From contig DAOURK010000032.1 of assembly GCA_030625085.1 (NCBI GenBank), positions 1-36,648 of the forward strand: 36,648 bases of DNA, in the 5' to 3' direction. Origin of the DNA: Pseudomonadota bacterium (GTDB lineage: Bacteria > SZUA-182 > DTGQ01). Shown here piece after piece: positions 3,474-36,648 of this stretch. Below the pieces are notes generated by a model. It saw only the letters and a program-made list of their open reading frames with translations, was not told the origin of the DNA and did not search any database. Numbering within the stretch: the first letter of the stretch is position 1; the number at the start of each line of letters is the position of its first letter. The position numbers were made by a program, and so were the translations under genes.

Positions 3474-4430
3474 TTAAAAAACAGGAGTCGTAAGCACTGC
3501 TTGAAATGTTCCTGTTTCCGCTACAGTAGTGCCATTTTTAATCAAAGTATAACTACCTTGCATTTGAGTACTACTAATTAATAGTGCCGAAAGATCTAGT
3601 TCAATTGTTCCTCCGGTGACACCCGGAATAATTCCATTGACAATAATTTGAGTACCTAATACCTCACCTGTTACACTAAGCCCGGCAGGGAGAAGTGGAT
3701 TTGTGGTAAGCTGTACATAGCCGGTAATTACACTTGGGATAACAGGGTCTTCAACAATATTTAACGTAATAGGCCCTTGCAGAATGCCGTTAGACCAAAG
3801 TCCTTCCCATGTCCCCACTTGTTCTGCAGCCACTGCTACTGCTGGTGAAGTAGTCCCAAATAATCCGCTACTACCTAACAGAGAAAGCATTGCCAGGGAA
3901 CCTAACCCTCCCATGCTGTTCATACCATAGAGACCGCCCATAAGGCCGCCTAAGCCATACATGCTTCCATAGAGTCCGCCCATGAGGCCAGAACCGCCTA
4001 AACCATACATGCTGCCATAGAGTCCGCCCATGAGGCCAGAACCACCTAAACCATACATGCTGCCATAAAGACCACCCATGAGGCCAGAACCACCTAAACC
4101 ATACATACTGCCATAGAGTCCGCCCATGAGGCCAGAACCACCTAAACCATACATACTGCCATAGAGTCCGCCCATGAGGCCAGAACCACCTAAACCATAC
4201 ATACTGCCATAGAGGCCACCCATAAGGCCAGAACCACCTAAACCATACATACTGCCATAAAGACCGCCATAACCGCCGTATGAACCAGATAATCCACTGC
4301 CGTACATACCATAATAACCACTTCCCAAACCTGAGCAGTAATAGGCCTTTGCTGTTCCTTTAGTTATGCTAACAAATAAAAATATGAATAAAAAAATCGT
4401 AATCAATACCTTTATTTTAAAAATATTCAT
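3474..4430 (-). CDS. Secreted Gly/Tyr/Met/Leu-rich tandem-repeat protein
   Basis: A 318-residue protein with a ribosome binding site (AGGAG) 7 nt before the ATG. Residues 1-29 form a signal peptide: Lys near the start, a long hydrophobic core and a cleavage-type AKA. A Gly/Tyr/Ser-rich stretch follows, then seven tandem units of GGLYGSMYGLGGSGLM (residues 55-164; the last is two residues short). The final part, residues about 205-318, is a non-repetitive domain starting GTWEGLWSNG with alternating hydrophobic pattern, probably a beta-structure. The repeats suggest a surface or extracellular structural protein, perhaps self-associating. I do not recognise a family and see no sorting signal at the C-terminus. 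It stands alone between intergenic regions. Confidence 0.75.
   Translation of the reverse strand: MNIFKIKVLITIFLFIFLFVSITKGTAKAYYCSGLGSGYYGMYGSGLSGSYGGYGGLYGSMYGLGGSGLMGGLYGSMYGLGGSGLMGGLYGSMYGLGGSGLMGGLYGSMYGLGGSGLMGGLYGSMYGLGGSGLMGGLYGSMYGLGGSGLMGGLYGSMYGLGGLMGGLYGMNSMGGLGSLAMLSLLGSSGLFGTTSPAVAVAAEQVGTWEGLWSNGILQGPITLNIVEDPVIPSVITGYVQLTTNPLLPAGLSVTGEVLGTQIIVNGIIPGVTGGTIELDLSALLISSTQMQGSYTLIKNGTTVAETGTFQAVLTTPVF
3939..4268 (-). repeat. 48-bp in-frame tandem repeat (7 units)
   Basis: DNA repeat coding for the 16-residue units of the secreted protein. Neighbouring units are nearly identical at the DNA level, and the last one (translation order) lacks six bases. This indicates recent expansion or homogenisation by slippage or recombination, so copy number may vary between strains. 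Confidence 0.9.
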
Positions 4431-7164: not shown

Positions 7165-7234
7165 AATTACGAATTACGAATTACGAATTACGAATTACGA
7201 ATTACGAATTACGAATTACGAATTACGAATTACG
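7165..7234. repeat. Heptamer tandem repeat, 10 x AATTACG
   Basis: Ten perfect copies of a 7-bp unit lie in the 146-bp gap between the phosphohexomutase stop and the CofD-like start, immediately upstream of the latter. Short heptamer repeats of this type are prone to slippage. Confidence 0.95.
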
Positions 7235-7291
7235 AACTAATGATCGGCTGGGAAGCCGCATAAATAAAATGAAAATTCCTATGCTTTTAAA

Positions 7292-22685: not shown

Positions 22686-23612
22686 ATGGCCAAAGAAAAG
22701 AAGGCAACAAAACCTCAAGGAAAACTTATTTTAGAAGTACTCACGCCCGAAAAAGTCGTTCTGAGAGATAGTGAAATAGACATTATTGTGGTAAAAGCGC
22801 CTGAACCTGCATTTCCCGATGTCCAGCCCATTAAAATGCCGGAATCTAAAGTCCCTATGCAATTTACAGAAGGAAGAGAAGTATTTAGAGATGGAAGAGA
22901 AGTTTTAAAAACAAAAAAGGTAATGGGTATCAAAGAATTGCCTGAAACCATGCACGAAGATGTGCCTCGGGTTATGGATGACAAACCCGGCGTTATGCGC
23001 GATGACGCACCGCGGCTTATGGAGGATGGTAAACCTCGTGTTATGAGGGATGATGCTCCGCGGGTTATGGATAAAAATGCACCTCCCATGGCAGATTTGC
23101 CTGATATGCCTGGCGCGCCACCAATGGGTGATTTGCCTGATATGCCTGACGCGCCTCCAATGGGTGATTTGCCCGAAAGACCAAACTTACCTCCTTTAGC
23201 GCAACGAGGAGATTTACCAGCACTACCCAAATTAGCGGAATTAGAAAAATTGCCCGATTTGCCCACCAGGCCTATAGCTTTAAAAGAAGTAGGCATTATG
23301 AATGGCCATGCGCCCATGCTGGTTAATTTGCCCATAAGTCCGATACGGTATAAAAAGGGAGAAGAGCTTCACTGGTTAATAGTTGCCGGGGGATTTTTAG
23401 AAGTGCGAAATAATAAAGTAACTATCCTATCCTTTGGCGCCGAGATTGTCACAGAAGAACCAGATGAGGATTTAGCTATTGCGGCCAAAAAGCGAGTTGA
23501 AAGCTGGCTTCTTGAAGGACAGGTGGGGAAAGTGGCTTTTGATGAAAAGGCTGCTGAAGCTGATATTAAAAAATCAGCTATCGAGCTTTACAAAGCCTCT
23601 TCTTCCCAATAA
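22686..23612 (+). CDS. atpC: F-type ATP synthase subunit epsilon with large Pro/Met/Asp insertion
   Basis: 308 residues against about 130-140. Residues 12-37 (GKLILEVLTPEKVVLRDSE) are the first strands of the epsilon beta-sandwich. Residues 202-258 (VGIMNGHAPMLVNLPISPI, LIVAGGFLEVRNNKVTIL) are the rest, and 259-308 the C-terminal helices. Between them, about 160 residues interrupt the sandwich where a short GxxGxFG loop normally sits. The insert has low complexity: repeats of VMRDDAPR, then APPMGDLPDMPD, then Leu-Pro-rich segments. It is likely disordered and outward-facing. Epsilon normally regulates ATP hydrolysis and links gamma to the c-ring. DNA through the insert is in frame and uninterrupted. 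Confidence 0.88.
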   Translation: MAKEKKATKPQGKLILEVLTPEKVVLRDSEIDIIVVKAPEPAFPDVQPIKMPESKVPMQFTEGREVFRDGREVLKTKKVMGIKELPETMHEDVPRVMDDKPGVMRDDAPRLMEDGKPRVMRDDAPRVMDKNAPPMADLPDMPGAPPMGDLPDMPDAPPMGDLPERPNLPPLAQRGDLPALPKLAELEKLPDLPTRPIALKEVGIMNGHAPMLVNLPISPIRYKKGEELHWLIVAGGFLEVRNNKVTILSFGAEIVTEEPDEDLAIAAKKRVESWLLEGQVGKVAFDEKAAEADIKKSAIELYKASSSQ

Positions 23613-29586: not shown

Positions 29587-30282
29587 ATGCCCTTTAAAAA
29601 TACTAAATTGGATACTTTTATCCCTTATTTTTCTCCTTATTTTGCCTTTCTTGGAATTAAAGCTATTGCCGATCTTTTCCCAAACGGTCTTTATTTAGGA
29701 TATATCTTAGCCTATGTAGCGGCAGCCGCCCTCCTTTGGATATTTCACCAAAAATATCAAGAGATGCATGAAAATAAAATAACCTCTTTAAATCTTTTTT
29801 GGGCATTAATAGTAGGTGTTATAGGAATTACCATTTGGATTTTGCCTTATCATTATATTGCCAATTTTGCCAAAACCGACGGTATCTTTGGTCTATTAGG
29901 AAGTCGCCAAAATACAATCAAATTACACCATTTACAGAAAAGCTGGCTTTCTCCATTTATTTTATTCCGTTTTGTTGGATATGTCCTGATAGTGCCGATT
30001 TTCGAAGAGCTTTTTATTCGTTCATTTTTATGGCGCTATATCATTAACCCCGATATAGAAAAAGTAGCTGTAGGAGAGTATACAGCCTTTGCCTTTTGGG
30101 GAACAGCCATACTATTTGCCTTATCTCATAATGAATGGATAGTGGCTTTTTTATACGCTGTTATTATAAATTTATTCCTCATTATCAAAAAAGACATAAA
30201 GTTATGTATGATAGCTCACGGCTTTTCCAACACAATTCTCATAATTTATGTCATAATAAGTGAAAATTGGTTTCTGTGGTAA
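29587..30282 (+). CDS. CPBP/CAAX-type membrane protease, exosortase-associated-like
   Basis: 231 residues with six or seven hydrophobic segments. The Rce1-like catalytic motifs are present: IFEELFIRSFLWRYI (EE...R), ILFALSHNEW (FxxxH-like) and MIAHGFSNTILIIYVI (HxxxN). The ending IIYVIISENWFLW and FPNGLYLGYIL resemble the CAAX-protease-related proteins that accompany exosortase/PEP-CTERM systems. No exosortase is in the window. No strong ribosome binding site is seen, but the frame starts cleanly with MPFKNTKLDT. Confidence 0.82.
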   Translation: MPFKNTKLDTFIPYFSPYFAFLGIKAIADLFPNGLYLGYILAYVAAAALLWIFHQKYQEMHENKITSLNLFWALIVGVIGITIWILPYHYIANFAKTDGIFGLLGSRQNTIKLHHLQKSWLSPFILFRFVGYVLIVPIFEELFIRSFLWRYIINPDIEKVAVGEYTAFAFWGTAILFALSHNEWIVAFLYAVIINLFLIIKKDIKLCMIAHGFSNTILIIYVIISENWFLW

Positions 30283-30445
30283 ACATTCATGGTCAAATAT
30301 TCAATTTGACCACCCCTGGAGATGAAAATAATATTTAGTAAAATATAATTTTTAGTGTAATGGGTATTTCCATGGTAAAAAAAAATTTATTTCGACGATG
30401 AAACAAAGATAAGTTTCCGAATAAATAATGAGAGGAGACATATCT

Positions 30446-30889
30446 ATGGAAAAAATCAGCATTGCTCGTCGACGCATAGAAAAACAAAACCTTCCCCTTT
30501 CTATTTCTAAAACCATAAACACTCATTCAATAAATTCTCCTCCAGAACCGAATACCCTTAAATTGACTCCCAGTTCCTTAGTTTCCCTGATCACTGAAGA
30601 AGCCCGTCTGGTTCAAACTGAAAAAAGGCAATTTACTATAGAAATTGTCTCCGGTTTTAAAAATCCCTTTAAGATGCTTGTTTCACTTCAACCACTCAAT
30701 TCAACCTGCTTCAATAACAAAAATTTTCTCACAACTCAAGAAACATCTCAACGCCTGCGTGTTTCAAAAAACACCATTTATCGTCAACTCCGATCAGGTA
30801 ATCTGTTAGGTCACAAAATCGGACGACAGTGGAGAGTCCCTTTAAGCGCTGTAACCTTGATAGAAAATCACACGAGGAGGGGTAGGTAA
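30446..30889 (+). CDS. Excisionase-type helix-turn-helix DNA-binding protein
   Basis: 147 residues from ATG 30446, spaced about 9 nt after GAGGAG; the earlier ATG at 30428 has no such site. The C-terminal 55 residues form an excisionase/MerR-like HTH: FLTTQETSQRLRVSKNTIYR, then QLRSGNLLGHKIGRQWRVP. The first 90 residues are Ser/Pro/Asn-rich with no clear domain. It abuts the ExeA-like ATPase gene with no gap, so the pair is translated together. Confidence 0.8.
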   Translation: MEKISIARRRIEKQNLPLSISKTINTHSINSPPEPNTLKLTPSSLVSLITEEARLVQTEKRQFTIEIVSGFKNPFKMLVSLQPLNSTCFNNKNFLTTQETSQRLRVSKNTIYRQLRSGNLLGHKIGRQWRVPLSAVTLIENHTRRGR

Positions 30890-32065
30890 ATGTATTACGA
30901 ATATTGGGGAATGAAAAAGGCTCCTTTTGATAATGTACCGGACCCTTCTCTTTATTGGAGTGAAAACAACTCTCTTGAAGATGCTATTTCAGAGATTTTA
31001 TTCGCCATTGAGGAAGGCAATGATTGTTTAGCTGTCCTTACAGGAAAAATTGGATCAGGAAAAACTTTGGGCCTGCGAATTATCTTAAACGAACTCGATC
31101 CGGAAAAATATCGTATTGCTTTTATTACTAATCCCGACCTCTCTTCAGTGCAGTTAATGCGTGAAATCATCGGCCAGTTGAAAAATAAAAAAATTACCAA
31201 CCGCTATAAAGACCAACTTCTGGAGGAATTGAACACTACCCTGTTTGACTGTGCCAATAAAGGTCAAAAGGTAATTATTTTTATTGATGAGGCCAATGTC
31301 ATGAACACAGCTCAATTGCACAACCTTCGACTTATGACTAACTTGCAGGATGATCAACAGAATATGATTATCTTTGTGCTCGCCGGTCAAGAAGAATTGG
31401 GGAAACGTTTAGAATCAAAAGCTTTGGAAAATCTTTACCAAAGGATTGGCGTTTACTGTCGTGTAAAAGGATTAACCGGTCCGGAAACAGTTCAACAATA
31501 TCTATCACACCGCATTAAGATTTGCGAAGGATCACCGGAAATATTTTCCCCAGAGGCGTATGAAGCAATCTGGCTTCATTCAGGTCAGGGAGTGCCGAGG
31601 CTGATTAATAAAATTGCAAAGCTTTGTTTGAAAGCCGGTGAAACCAATCAAATAAAAAAAATTGATGCTGAAATGGTCCATACCATAGCTTCGATGTTCG
31701 AGCGGGTAAAACCTCTTCTTCCCCAAATACCTCAGCAAAAAAACCCCGCTAAAAATAAAAAACCCCCTTCTCAATCTGATAATCATAAGGTATTTTCACC
31801 AGTTACTCAAACTCAGTTTCATGGGGATGCAATGGTAATAGATCTTATTGAGGGACTGTCACCCCAGATTCGTAATCAGTTACAATCTATGGAGGATAAG
31901 CAATTAGTGGACCTGGCCGGTAAAATGGCTATACAACTTATTCAAAAAAAAGGACAAAAATCAGCCGACGACCCGGTGATTGTTTGGCATTCCATCAAAG
32001 GCCGCATATACTCTGCACTTAAATCTATCCAAGAGCCTAAACGATACCATATAGGCACCTCCTAA
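30890..32065 (+). CDS. ExeA-like AAA+ ATPase
   Basis: 391 residues. The N-terminal YYEYWGMKKAPFDNVPDPS is the signature start of the ExeA/MshM family. It has Walker A GKIGSGKT, Walker B VIIFIDEAN, the sensor region MIIFVLAGQEELG and a winged lid part with GVPRLINKIAKLCL. About 90 further residues form a helical C-terminus without recognised domain (no peptidoglycan-binding domain as in ExeA itself). Relatives act in type II secretion, pilus assembly or exosortase-linked EPS loci. Its neighbour protease fits the last idea; this is an inference. Confidence 0.85.
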   Translation: MYYEYWGMKKAPFDNVPDPSLYWSENNSLEDAISEILFAIEEGNDCLAVLTGKIGSGKTLGLRIILNELDPEKYRIAFITNPDLSSVQLMREIIGQLKNKKITNRYKDQLLEELNTTLFDCANKGQKVIIFIDEANVMNTAQLHNLRLMTNLQDDQQNMIIFVLAGQEELGKRLESKALENLYQRIGVYCRVKGLTGPETVQQYLSHRIKICEGSPEIFSPEAYEAIWLHSGQGVPRLINKIAKLCLKAGETNQIKKIDAEMVHTIASMFERVKPLLPQIPQQKNPAKNKKPPSQSDNHKVFSPVTQTQFHGDAMVIDLIEGLSPQIRNQLQSMEDKQLVDLAGKMAIQLIQKKGQKSADDPVIVWHSIKGRIYSALKSIQEPKRYHIGTS

Positions 32066-32362
32066 AATATTTCACCCAAAAAAATTGCTGCCCGGATATT
32101 TCTCTCCCCTTATAAATCTATTAGTGAAATAAAAAATTACTACTTAAAACAAAGAGTTAAGAATATAATAAAAAAAAAGGATGAGAAATTTCTCAGCTTT
32201 TATAAATTATTATGTTATGATATGCAACAGCAATCAAAAATAGACTATAATTAAAGCCATACACCGACTCATTGAAATTCAAAATTCTATACTTACCCAG
32301 TCTAACGAAAATAAAAATAAATTGTGATTACCATATCAATTCAGGGAGAAAGGAATATCAGT
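32066..32362. other. Intergenic region upstream of carA
   Basis: About 300 bp, AT-rich. A perfect 14-bp palindrome TGAGAAATTTCTCA at 32182-32195, followed by GCTTTT, could be a weak terminator for the ATPase unit or a regulatory site for carAB. I cannot locate a convincing promoter. Confidence 0.45.
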
Positions 32363-33436
32363 ATGAAAGGATCATTACTCTTAGAGGATGGAAGTTCTTT
32401 TGAAGGCCTTTCAATAGGAGCGGCCGGAGAAAGGATAGGGGAAGTGATTTTCAACACGGCTGTAGTCGGATATCAAGAAATGATGACAGACCCTGCTAAT
32501 GCCGGTAAAATCTTAGTTCTTACCTATCCTTTGATAGGCAACTATGGTATGGCCCCTAAATTTAATGAATCCAAAAGATGCTGGATAGAAGGGTTGGTTA
32601 TTAAAGAAGAAAGCAAAATACCTTCCAACTGGCAAGCTGAGGATAGTTTTACTCATTTTCTAAAAAACGAAAAGCTTTTAACTCTCAGTGGAATAGATAC
32701 AAGAACATTGACTGTACATATTCGAGATAAAGGCCAGATGTTAGGAATAATTTCAAGTGATGGTACAAAGAAATCAGACATGATGAAAAAATTAAAAGCA
32801 TATAAAAAAAATATAAAAAAAGACTTTATTAAAGATACATCAGTAAATGAAATTACCAAAATTACTAACAATTCTTCCGGAGCAAAGATCGGCATACTGG
32901 ATTTGGGGATCTTGAATAACTTTCTCCGCCAATTAAAAACCTTGAGATGCAACATCACCTTGCTGCCTTACAATATGGATGCGGACAAAATTCTTGCCTT
33001 AAAACTTGATGGTTTAATAATTTCCAATGGGCCTGAAGATGATAAAGCAATTCCTGAAATTGTCAAAACATTTCAAAAAATTCTCGGCAAAATTCCTATC
33101 CTGGGAATTGCTACGGGTCACGAAATTATTGGCTTGGTCTTAGGAGGAAAGCGAACCAGGATGCAGGTGGGGCATCACGGCGTAAATTATCCTGTCAGGT
33201 CATCTTCTTCCTTTAAAGGTGACATTACTGTTCAAAACCATTCATTTGTTGTGGATGAGGATTCAATCAAAGATAAAAAAAATATTTCTGTCACCTTGCG
33301 AAATGTAAATGATAACTCCATTGAAGAGATGGAAAGTGTTCCTTTACGATTTATTTCCACCCAATACTATCCGGTAAGTCCGGGATTTGATGAAGTCCAC
33401 CAGGTATTTACCAAATTTTTAGGGATGATACATTAG
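32363..33436 (+). CDS. carA: Carbamoyl-phosphate synthetase small subunit, glutaminase triad lost
   Basis: 357 residues from ATG 32363 (AAAGGA upstream; a GTG 13 codons earlier is unlikely). The N-terminal CarA domain is normal: LLLEDGSSFEG, GEVIFNTAVVGYQEMMTDPA, LTYPLIGNYG, SGIDTRTLTVHIRDKG. The class I glutaminase domain is recognisable (HHGVNYPV, TVQNHSFVVDEDS) but catalytically broken. The nucleophile motif GICLGHQ reads GIATGHE with Ala250. The QYHPEASPGP motif reads QYYPVSPGF, with Tyr336 for His, Val338 for Glu and one residue deleted. The oxyanion-loop SNGPGDP reads SNGPEDD. DNA at 33110-33112 (GCT) and 33368-33376 (TAT CCG GTA) confirms this. The frame is intact, so the protein should still be made and may serve as a partner of CarB without hydrolysing glutamine. 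Confidence 0.93.
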   Translation: MKGSLLLEDGSSFEGLSIGAAGERIGEVIFNTAVVGYQEMMTDPANAGKILVLTYPLIGNYGMAPKFNESKRCWIEGLVIKEESKIPSNWQAEDSFTHFLKNEKLLTLSGIDTRTLTVHIRDKGQMLGIISSDGTKKSDMMKKLKAYKKNIKKDFIKDTSVNEITKITNNSSGAKIGILDLGILNNFLRQLKTLRCNITLLPYNMDADKILALKLDGLIISNGPEDDKAIPEIVKTFQKILGKIPILGIATGHEIIGLVLGGKRTRMQVGHHGVNYPVRSSSSFKGDITVQNHSFVVDEDSIKDKKNISVTLRNVNDNSIEEMESVPLRFISTQYYPVSPGFDEVHQVFTKFLGMIH

Positions 33437-33493: not shown

Positions 33494-36400
33494 ATGCCAA
33501 AACGCAATGATATAAAAAAGATATTAATGATTGGCTCAGGGCCTATTGTTATTGGGCAGGCCTGCGAGTTTGATTATTCAGGTTCTCAAGCCTGTAAAGC
33601 TTTACGAGAGGAAGGTTATTATACTATCCTGGTAAACAGCAATCCGGCTACCATTATGACCGACCCCCATATGGCCGATGTAACGTATATTGAGCCACTT
33701 ACCATAGAGTCGGTCATAGAAATAATAAAAAAAGAAAAACCCGATGCCATTTTGCCTACCTTAGGTGGCCAGACCGGCTTGAACCTGGCTTATTTTCTAA
33801 TGAAAGAAGGTATCCTGAAAAAATATAGTGTTGAGTCCTTAGGGGCTGATGTTGAGGCCATTGCCAGGGCCGAGGATAGAGAGCTTTTCAAACAGGCCAT
33901 GAAAGAGATAGGCGTAGATACCCCCAAAAGCGGCATAGCAGTTAATCTGAAAGAGGGAATGGAGATAGGTCTTGGCATTGGATTCCCCTTGATTTTAAGG
34001 CCGGCTTATTGCATGGGAGGCAGCGGCGGCTCGATTGCTTACAACAAAGAAGAATTAGAAGAATCTTTAATCAATGCCCTTGAAATCAGCCCGGTTCATC
34101 AAGTATTGGTTGAACAATCAGTCCTGGGCTGGAAAGAAATAGAGTACGAAGTGATGCGGGATTGTGTTGACAATGTCATCATGATTACCTCTATGGAGAA
34201 TATAGACCCTATGGGCGTTCATACTGGAGACAGTATTGTCGTAGCCCCATCTCAGACACTGACCGGAGAAGAATACACCCAATTTGTAAACCTTTCTAAA
34301 AAAATTATCCGCAAAGTCGGCATAACCGGGGGAGGGGCTAATATTCAATTCGGTCAAAATCCTGATAATGGACACATTGTGATCATCGAAGTTAATCCGA
34401 GGCTTTCCAGAAGCTCGGCGCTGGCTTCCAAGGCCACGGGCTTTCCGATTGCCCGGGTGGCCACCAAATTGGCCGTCGGTTATACGCTTCCCGAGGTTAT
34501 GAATCAGATTACCGGGCAAACAACCTCTTTCTTTGAACCGACTGTTGATTACTGTGTATTTAAGATCTGCAGATTTACCTTTGAAAAATTTCCCCAGGCT
34601 AAATGGGCCCTGAATACGGCTATGAAAGCTGTTGGTGAGGCCATGTCTATTGGAAGAAACTTTAAGGAAGCCCTCCAAAAAGGTATAAGGTCAACTGAAA
34701 CACGCAGGTTCGGCCTTGGCTCGGATGGGAAGGACAAAATCTCGGATAAGACATTATCCTCGGCCTCAAAGGAGTTAATTGATAAAATAAAAACCAAAAT
34801 AAGAATTCCCAATGAAAATCGACTCTTTTATATCAGATATGCGCTTAAAGCGGGGCTTACTGTTGATGAAATATATGACCTATCAAAAATCGACCGCTGG
34901 TTTATTGATAACATCAAACAGATTGTCGAGTTAGAGGGAGAAATAAAAAAATTTAAAAATGATAATATTAAAGCCGATATAACAATCCCGCCGGAGCTGC
35001 TGAAAAAAGCCAAGCAGTATGGCTTTTCAGATATACAGCTTGCCTTTCTTCTCCATTCAACAGAGAAAAAAATAAGGTCTCAAAGGAAACGACAAAACAT
35101 AAAAGCAGTCTATAAATTAGTAGACACCTGTGGGGGAGAATTTGCGGCCAAACAGCCTTATTATTATTCAACCTATGAAACATCCAACGAAAGTAAGCCC
35201 TCTTCAAATAAAAAGGTCCTCATCCTTGGGGGGGGACCAAATAGAATAGGACAGGGAATAGAATTTGATTATTGTTGCTGCCACGCCTCTTACGCCCTCC
35301 GAGAAGAGGGCATAGAAAATATCATGATAAATTGCAACCCGGAAACTGTATCTACGGATTATGATACTTCAAATAAACTGTACTTTGAACCATTAACTGT
35401 TGAAGATGTCTTAAATATTGTAGACCATGAAAAACCCGTTGGCATCATTGTCCAATTTGGCGGCCAGACCCCGCTTAATATTGCAGTACCTCTGGAAAAA
35501 GCGCGGGTAAAGATTCTAGGCACAAGTCCTGACGCTATAGACAGGGCAGAGAACAGAAAAAGATTTCAACAAATGCTCAAAAAGCTAAAAATCATCCAGC
35601 CTGATAATGGAACAGCCCTCTCTGTCAAAGGAGCATGGAAAGTGGCCAATAAAATAGGCTATCCTGTAGTTGTAAGACCTTCGTATGTACTCGGCGGCAG
35701 GGGCATGGAGATTGTCTATGATGATGAAGGGTTAGCCGATTTTATGGAAAAAGCATTAGAAGCCTCTCCCGAGCATCCCATCCTTATCGATAAATTCCTG
35801 GAAGATGCTATAGAAGTAGACGTGGATGCCATAGCTGACGGTAAGCAATGTGTTATAGGAGGCATAATGGAACATATTGAAGAGGCGGGTATCCATTCCG
35901 GCGATAGCGCTATGGTGCTTCCTCCCCATACTCTGGGAAAAGACCTCCTCAAAGAAATTAAAAAAAATACCTATGCTATTGCCAAAGAATTACAGGTAAA
36001 AGGGCTTTTAAATATTCAATATGCTATTAAAAATAATATCGTGTACGTGCTTGAAGTTAATCCGCGAGCCAGCCGAACCATTCCTTTTATCAGCAAAGTA
36101 ATGGGGGTTACCCTGGCCAAACTGGCTACCAAGGTAATGCTTGGGAAAACCTTACAAGAATTAGGATTTACCCAGGAAAAAGAGATAAGTTATTTTGCAG
36201 TGAAAGAGTCTGTCTTTCCCTTTATAAAATTTCCGGGTGTGGATGCTATTTTGGGTCCTGAGATGAAATCCACAGGGGAAGTCATGGGTATTGACGCCAC
36301 CTTTGGCACAGCTTATATGAAAAGCCAAATAGCTGCCGGGCAACGCTTACCGATAAAAGGTACCGTGTTTATCAGCGTAAAAAACCAGGACAAGAGAGAT

Positions 36401-36648
36401 ATTGTCTTTATTGCTAAAAAGCTGGCCGATCTTGGGTTCACCATTACAGCCACTTCCGGCACGGCGGATGTTCTCTTAAGAAACGATATATCTGTAAAAA
36501 CTTTACCCAAACTGTATGAAGGAAGACCTAATATTATTGATTTAATAAAGGACGGCAAGGTTGATCTTTTAATAAATACCCCTTCAGGGAAGGCAACCAA
36601 AAAGGATGAAACGAAAATACGATCTCATGCCATTCTTTATAGTATCCC
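33494..36648 (+). CDS. carB: Carbamoyl-phosphate synthetase large subunit (3' end off window)
   Basis: 1051 codons are visible of a family length of about 1070. It makes carbamoyl phosphate for pyrimidine and arginine synthesis. First half: [68 protein letters not shown] and the metal-binding [19 protein letters not shown]. Second half: [46 protein letters not shown] and [17 protein letters not shown]. Both ATP-grasp domains look intact. The C-terminal allosteric MGS-like domain begins at about residue 955 ([14 protein letters not shown]). GGAGG lies before the ATG, 57 nt after carA. Confidence 0.96.

Follow-up and report, generated by a model that had tools for sequence, protein, structure and literature searches.

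The window, by which we mean the whole 36,648-nucleotide stretch of DNA that was analysed, encodes a carbamoyl-phosphate synthetase (CPS) small subunit whose glutaminase site appears to be dead, followed by the gene for a large subunit. The question raised by this locus is where such a pair obtains its nitrogen, and whether the organism makes carbamoyl phosphate in any other way. The two genes are called carA' and carB' here. They were examined residue by residue against E. coli CPS, then in a clade of related pairs and in the genomes that carry them.

Active-site and tunnel residues of CarA' and CarB'

The carA' gene occupies 32363..33436 on the + strand and encodes a glutaminase-dead CarA of 357 aa. 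The open reading frame begins with an ATG at 32363 and ends with a stop at 33436, and an alternative in-frame GTG start is located at 32324. CarA' matched the full-length CarA family TIGR01368 over residues 4-356 with 351 bits (cut-off 307), and contains the Pfam domains CPSase_sm_chain and GATase. The AlphaFold2 model was confident (pLDDT 90.5, pTM 0.91). E. coli CarA topped its PDB matches (TM 0.90-0.92), followed by human CPS1. The frame is intact, as the initial annotation had stated, and the predicted fold is that of CarA.

The Cys-His-Glu triad was absent from CarA'. Alignment with E. coli CarA placed A250 at C269 and Y336 at H353, and E355 was deleted, which confirms the earlier claim that all three triad residues had been lost. 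The third change had been read as Glu to Val338 plus deletion of an adjacent residue. That is the same gap set one residue over, and the alignment of the clade described below favours deletion of E355 itself. The altered oxyanion loop was also borne out, with SNGPGDP changed to SNGPEDD (G243 to E225, P245 to D227). Further changes were S47 to A45, K202 to L184, L270 to T251 and G313 to S294. Besides the triad, the glutamine pocket and the GPG loop are altered in CarA'.

Among 84,980 species genomes scanned, 22 loci with 48-71% identity turned up, all in metagenome-assembled genomes (MAGs) that bear the labels Omnitrophota, Ratteibacteria, Elusimicrobia and Clostridia. Additional members were obtained from phylum samples. 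Together the window copy and its relatives, about 47-71% identical and mostly from Omnitrophota MAGs, comprise 32 CarAs that are monophyletic in the CarA tree (SH-aLRT 100). Alignment across CarA relatives had been proposed as a check in the initial annotation, and the same dead pattern was found in all 31 relatives.

The dead clade was compared with 117 other CarAs; all window coordinates that follow are on the + strand. Glu225-Asp226-Asp227 (33035..33043) form the altered GPGDP loop (E. coli G243, D244, P245), where position 243 is Glu in 32/32 dead-clade members and Gly in 117/117 others. Tyr336-Pro337-Val338 (33368..33376) mark the replacement of His353 and the deletion of Glu355. E355 is absent from 32/32 members, and 20/32 have Tyr at 353. 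Ala250-Thr251 (33110..33115) correspond to catalytic Cys269 and Leu270; position 269 is Ser, Ala or Gly in 31/32 members and Cys in one, compared with Cys in 115/117 others. Ala45 (32495..32497) replaces Ser47, which we take to be a glutamine-site residue, and is Ala in 30/32 of the clade but Ser in 115/117 others. Val274 (33182..33184) lies at the ammonia-tunnel residue Gly293, with Val in 26/32 and Gly or Ala in 95/117. Finally, Phe342-Asp343 (33386..33391) match P360-H361 of the CarA-CarB interface loop, which presumably have a tunnel-wall role; position 360 is Phe in 26/32 and Pro in 116/117. With these residues CarA' is predicted to be unable to work as a class I glutaminase.

The carB' gene (33494..36648, + strand) matched NF003671 with 1600 bits. 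The gene is cut short where the contig stops at 36648, so 1051 residues (33494-36646) are seen and the last few tens lie beyond it. Every catalytic residue checked against E. coli is kept in both ATP-grasp halves, as expected from the earlier report of an intact carB, and the E. coli-type UMP/IMP-site residues K954, T974 and T977 are retained. Orthologues of CarB' (71-85% identity) are full-length where contig ends do not cut them.

The 32 dead-paired CarBs were then compared with 62 CarBs that adjoin intact CarAs. Thr232 (34187..34189, + strand) stands at the E. coli gate residue Cys232 and is Thr in 32/32 dead-paired CarBs but Cys in 62/62 others. Val265 (34286..34288, + strand) stands at Arg265, which we take to be part of the tunnel wall at the CarA interface; it is Val in 32/32 and Arg in 62/62. 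Kim and Raushel reportedly used P360, H361 and R265 for tunnel perforation in 2004. By position, we take E. coli C232, A251 and A314 to be the equivalents of Cys648, Ala667 and Ala729 of human CPS1. The latter three form the ammonia gate of the human enzyme (PMC4655335). Clade-wide substitutions at positions conserved in other CarBs numbered 16, with 16 in the N-half and 0 in the C-half (P 5e-4). Thus the N-half of CarB', which uses ammonia and contacts CarA, carries fixed changes matching the dead CarA'. As the dead clade is monophyletic, the correlated changes count as essentially one event and not as independent replicates.

Distribution of the pair and a second CPS in the window's genome

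The genome to which the window belongs, as contig C242, measures 4.94 Mb in 247 contigs (G000). Another carA of this genome has its triad intact (GICLGHQ, QYHPE) and is accompanied by a full-length carB (C144:8855-13640; 405 and 1126 aa). This rules out carA'-carB' as the only CPS of the genome and overturns the initial proposal of an ammonia-only CPS for the organism, for which the initial annotation had itself named such a gene as the refuting finding. Given the intact second CarAB, there is no sign of the ammonia dependence or ammonia-rich habitat that had been suggested. In G000, carA'-carB' is, as far as the sequences indicate, a CPS additional to an ordinary CarAB that depends on glutamine. 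A single pair of PF02729 genes, presumably ATCase and OTCase, is located elsewhere in G000. A mis-binned contig was ruled out using accC, which is on the window's contig, is single-copy in G000 and is 83% identical to that of a genome of the same family.

All carA copies of the related genomes G001-G004 are intact. Second copies in G001 and G003 were considered as relatives of carA' and rejected, being intact and of another type. Because the closest relatives of carA'-carB' are instead in Omnitrophota and similar MAGs, the pair was likely acquired horizontally by the window's organism.

Several other features of the window were noted. Repeat regions are present at 3949-4268 and 23001-23194. 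A tandem repeat of 48 bp is translated into GGLYGSMYGLGGSGLM repeats within a protein that looks secreted, and an ORF at the place of ATP synthase epsilon (22686-23612) contains a repeated insert rich in Pro/Asp. At 7165-7236 the 7-base unit AATTACG is repeated perfectly, in ten copies, just upstream of the neighbour of a phosphoglucomutase-like ORF. Upstream of carA', at 29587-32065, are genes for a CAAX-protease-related protein and an XrtA/PEP-CTERM-type ATPase, hinting at an exosortase system.

In the 145-genome Omnitrophota sample 11 genomes (about 8%) carry carA'. Most carriers of the dead pair also have an intact carA. No second carA was found in 8 carriers (G061, G062, G063, G071, G076, G087, G091, G127), which are MAGs, so the absence is weak and the assemblies may have missed a second carA. 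Among them, the sisters G061 and G063 are closest to the window copy. A PF02729 transcarbamoylase was found in all 8, with two matches in 7/8 and one in 1/8, which counts in favour of the ammonia-fed reading given below.

Pairs with unsaturated dS gave NG86 dN/dS values of 0.06-0.18 for CarA' and 0.03-0.09 for CarB', and the GATase domain of CarA' is under as much constraint as the N-domain. CarA' is held under purifying selection and shows no decay. One subclade lies in a pyr operon with the order pyrR-pyrB-pyrC-TIGR00375-SLOG-carA'-carB'-mutM-PEMT-pyrK-pyrD-pyrF; in another, carA'-carB' is upstream of purF-guaA-purL. These pyrimidine and purine operons suggest that the product most likely feeds nucleotide synthesis. 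The window locus has neither pyr nor pur operon context, and its downstream side lies beyond the contig. Neighbouring genes were screened as candidates for a substitute glutaminase and rejected. The TIGR00375, SLOG-family, mutM and PEMT-like products have no amidotransferase domain, and purF, guaA and purL encode ordinary purine amidotransferases. One TIGR00375-family protein in a pyr operon (L053:3060-5534) contains a ~400-residue insert that matched an intein-containing model.

The residue states and how well they are conserved, the CarB changes that correlate with them, the way the genes are arranged and the trees lead us to infer that carA'-carB' is probably a CPS that no longer takes nitrogen from glutamine via its own small subunit, that is, an ammonia-fed pair. 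The window pair's own CarA is predicted to give no glutamine use. CarA' would keep its fold and probably still be seated structurally on CarB'. CarB' would form carboxyphosphate and join it to NH3 reaching the N-domain from outside, and the carbamate would then be phosphorylated in the C-domain. Overall the reaction would be like that of vertebrate CPS I, carried out by a two-subunit bacterial enzyme. E. coli CPS with a blocked or perforated tunnel loses glutamine-dependent activity and has normal NH3 activity, and an alternative entry of NH3 along the subunit interface has been proposed for it (PMC4655335). Counting against the ammonia reading, ordinary E. coli CPS uses free NH3 poorly (PMC6245113).

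A second dead CarA bears on the ammonia reading in two ways. In its favour, the sole CarA found in G030, a 99% complete genome, is triad-dead (GEVLGHQ, QFMPD; L209:8189-12485) and unrelated to the clade, and its CarB has intact catalytic residues. Against it, this CarB keeps gate C232 and has R265K only. Since this CarA is dead but falls outside the clade, the glutaminase appears to have been lost more than once in bacteria. Two Omnitrophota CarAs are dead in other ways (AFGLGSCF at L195:5354-9693; GISLGHQ with QFHPR at L197:6400-10834), and their CarBs are on the CarB' side of the N-half tree with R265V in each. A triad-dead CarA outside the clade (GIGLGHE, QFYPK) was also noted in Clostridia bacterium RUI230 (L065:8001-9050), where carB is cut by the contig end.

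Reciprocal CarB halves in Omnitrophota and alternative explanations

In Omnitrophota genomes with both loci, the CarB beside the intact carA consists of the N-half only. It is ~545-575 aa long, ends after the oligomerisation domain and retains all N-half residues. These intact-carA plus CarB-N loci (L131-L146, L196, L206-L208) are in clusters with gltB-gltD-pyrG-...-purF. A separate CarB C-half was looked for in the dead-pair genomes with CarB-N and none was found. Separate C-half genes were identified in 5 genomes without carA' (G098, G108, G112, G167, G213; L189-L193). They are 77-80% identical to the C-half of the window's CarB' and lie 5-18 kb from an intact carA. The C-half tree nested them among CarB' C-halves, and a grouping of dead-pair C-halves without the separate genes was rejected (AU p 9e-6). 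CarB-N sequences fall with ordinary CarBs in the N-half tree. G141 (L194) has, after an intact CarA, a single CarB that joins an N-half of the live type to a C-half of the CarB' type.

According to these trees, the separate C-half genes and the C-half of the G141 fusion descend from the CarB' C-half of the dead pair. In the CarA tree, intact CarAs of genomes with both systems enclose those of G141 and of the split genomes, a nesting that suggests the split and fused states came after the two-system state. The simplest account is that the CarB' C-half serves, or came to serve, intact CarA:CarB-N. As the C-halves now found with intact CarA appear to derive from CarB', the dead and intact systems probably cooperate in Omnitrophota, and in most carriers there the CarB' C-half probably also serves, or once served, the intact CarA and N-half CarB. 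The other ammonia-releasing partner suggested in the initial annotation is thus a live possibility in Omnitrophota, where an intact CarA occurs with a half CarB, but no half-CarB system was found in G000.

We tentatively raise, as a possibility, that the CPS of Omnitrophota consists of two modules. One, made of intact CarA and half CarB, would hydrolyse glutamine; it and a synthetase module (CarA' plus full CarB') would share one carbamate-kinase half, the mutual dependence having arisen by reciprocal decay after duplication. The synthetase module would then have spread by gene transfer to other phyla, the window's organism included, as a stand-alone ammonia-fed CPS.

The same arrangement could be taken further, with CarA'-CarB' as one half of a two-part machine. 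Intact CarA and N-half CarB would hydrolyse glutamine, make carbamate (or NH3) and pass it to a CarB' whose C-half is the genome's only carbamate kinase, and CarA' would be structural or regulatory. The short CarB beside intact carA with no separate C-half found, the nesting of the separate C-halves and the natural fusion in G141 all fit such a machine. We felt it was rather unlikely all the same. It does not suit G000 and G048, which have a complete second CarAB, or the carriers in which no second carA was found, and the N-half active site of CarB' is also fully conserved. Moreover, a half CarB might dimerise and perform both steps alone, as in the small dimeric archaeal CPS (PMC6022934).

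CarA' could also be a regulator or decoy that modulates CarB', or competes with intact CarA for CarB and so damps glutamine-dependent synthesis. A dead, conserved paralogue alongside a live one, as seen in most carriers and in G000, would be compatible with this. We consider it improbable, as CarA' always occurs with its own CarB', whose N-half is changed in step, which would be needless for a decoy of another CarB. A decaying pseudogene, assembly error or mis-binned contig is very improbable: of the genomes searched from the window's family just one has the copy, and carB is cut by the end of the contig, but 31 separately assembled relatives in the same state and dN/dS far below 1 reject decay and assembly error, and the accC result argues against mis-binning.

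The probable ammonia-fed pair and known CPS enzymes

If the ammonia-fed reading is true, ammonia-type CPS would have arisen a second time with carA'-carB', in bacteria and probably independently, the small subunit being retained as a dead scaffold while the tunnel wall and the ammonia gate changed in step. The clade would supply natural variants for studying the glutamine-to-ammonia rewiring of a 96-angstrom tunnel enzyme, and the live CarA/half CarB versus dead CarA'/full CarB' of Omnitrophota would make complementation after duplication directly testable. The annotation "glutamine-hydrolyzing" would be wrong for dead-clade proteins. We found no earlier report of a glutaminase-dead bacterial CarA or of Omnitrophota CPS among the open-access papers searched.

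The analogy with mammalian CPS I drawn in the initial annotation was apt. Vertebrate CPS I (human and frog CPS1) is likewise an ATP-grasp CPS in which the synthetase domains are intact and the class I glutaminase domain, though dead, has been kept (PMC4655335). The likeness extends to the motif around the catalytic Cys, which in human CPS1 is Ser followed by Thr (GIS-T-GN; PMC4655335) and in most of the dead clade reads GIS-T-GH. It also extends to the tunnel, where Gln318 of human CPS1 blocks the passage at the site of E. coli Gly293 (PMC4655335), a residue replaced mostly by Val in the clade. CarA'-CarB' shares with CPS I the loss of the glutaminase Cys and the intact synthetase residues, but carA' and carB' are separate genes. 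CPS1 is a single fused chain that requires N-acetylglutamate and keeps the triad His and Glu. Unlike CPS1, the dead clade has also lost the His and Glu, its gate residue C232 is changed in CarB' (kept as Cys648 in CPS1), and the operons around it belong to nucleotide synthesis instead of ureagenesis.

CarA'-CarB' matches E. coli CarAB, a bacterial CPS II, in gene order, fold, domains and synthetase residues, and CarA' scores above the TIGR01368 cut-off. The two differ in the glutaminase triad, the glutamine pocket and the GPG loop, and in residues of the tunnel wall and the gate. Some Omnitrophota relatives, with intact CarA, CarB-N and a separate CarB-C, resemble the split CPS of Aquifex aeolicus, which has separate GLN, CPS.A and CPS.B (PMC6022934). 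Unlike that enzyme, their separate CarB-C appears to derive from the CarB' of the dead pair, and many genomes are without a separate C-half. The CarB-N beside intact CarA is also comparable to the half-size synthetase of the small dimeric CPS of Methanobrevibacter smithii (PMC6022934), but in Omnitrophota it is paired with CarA and coexists with a full-length CarB'.
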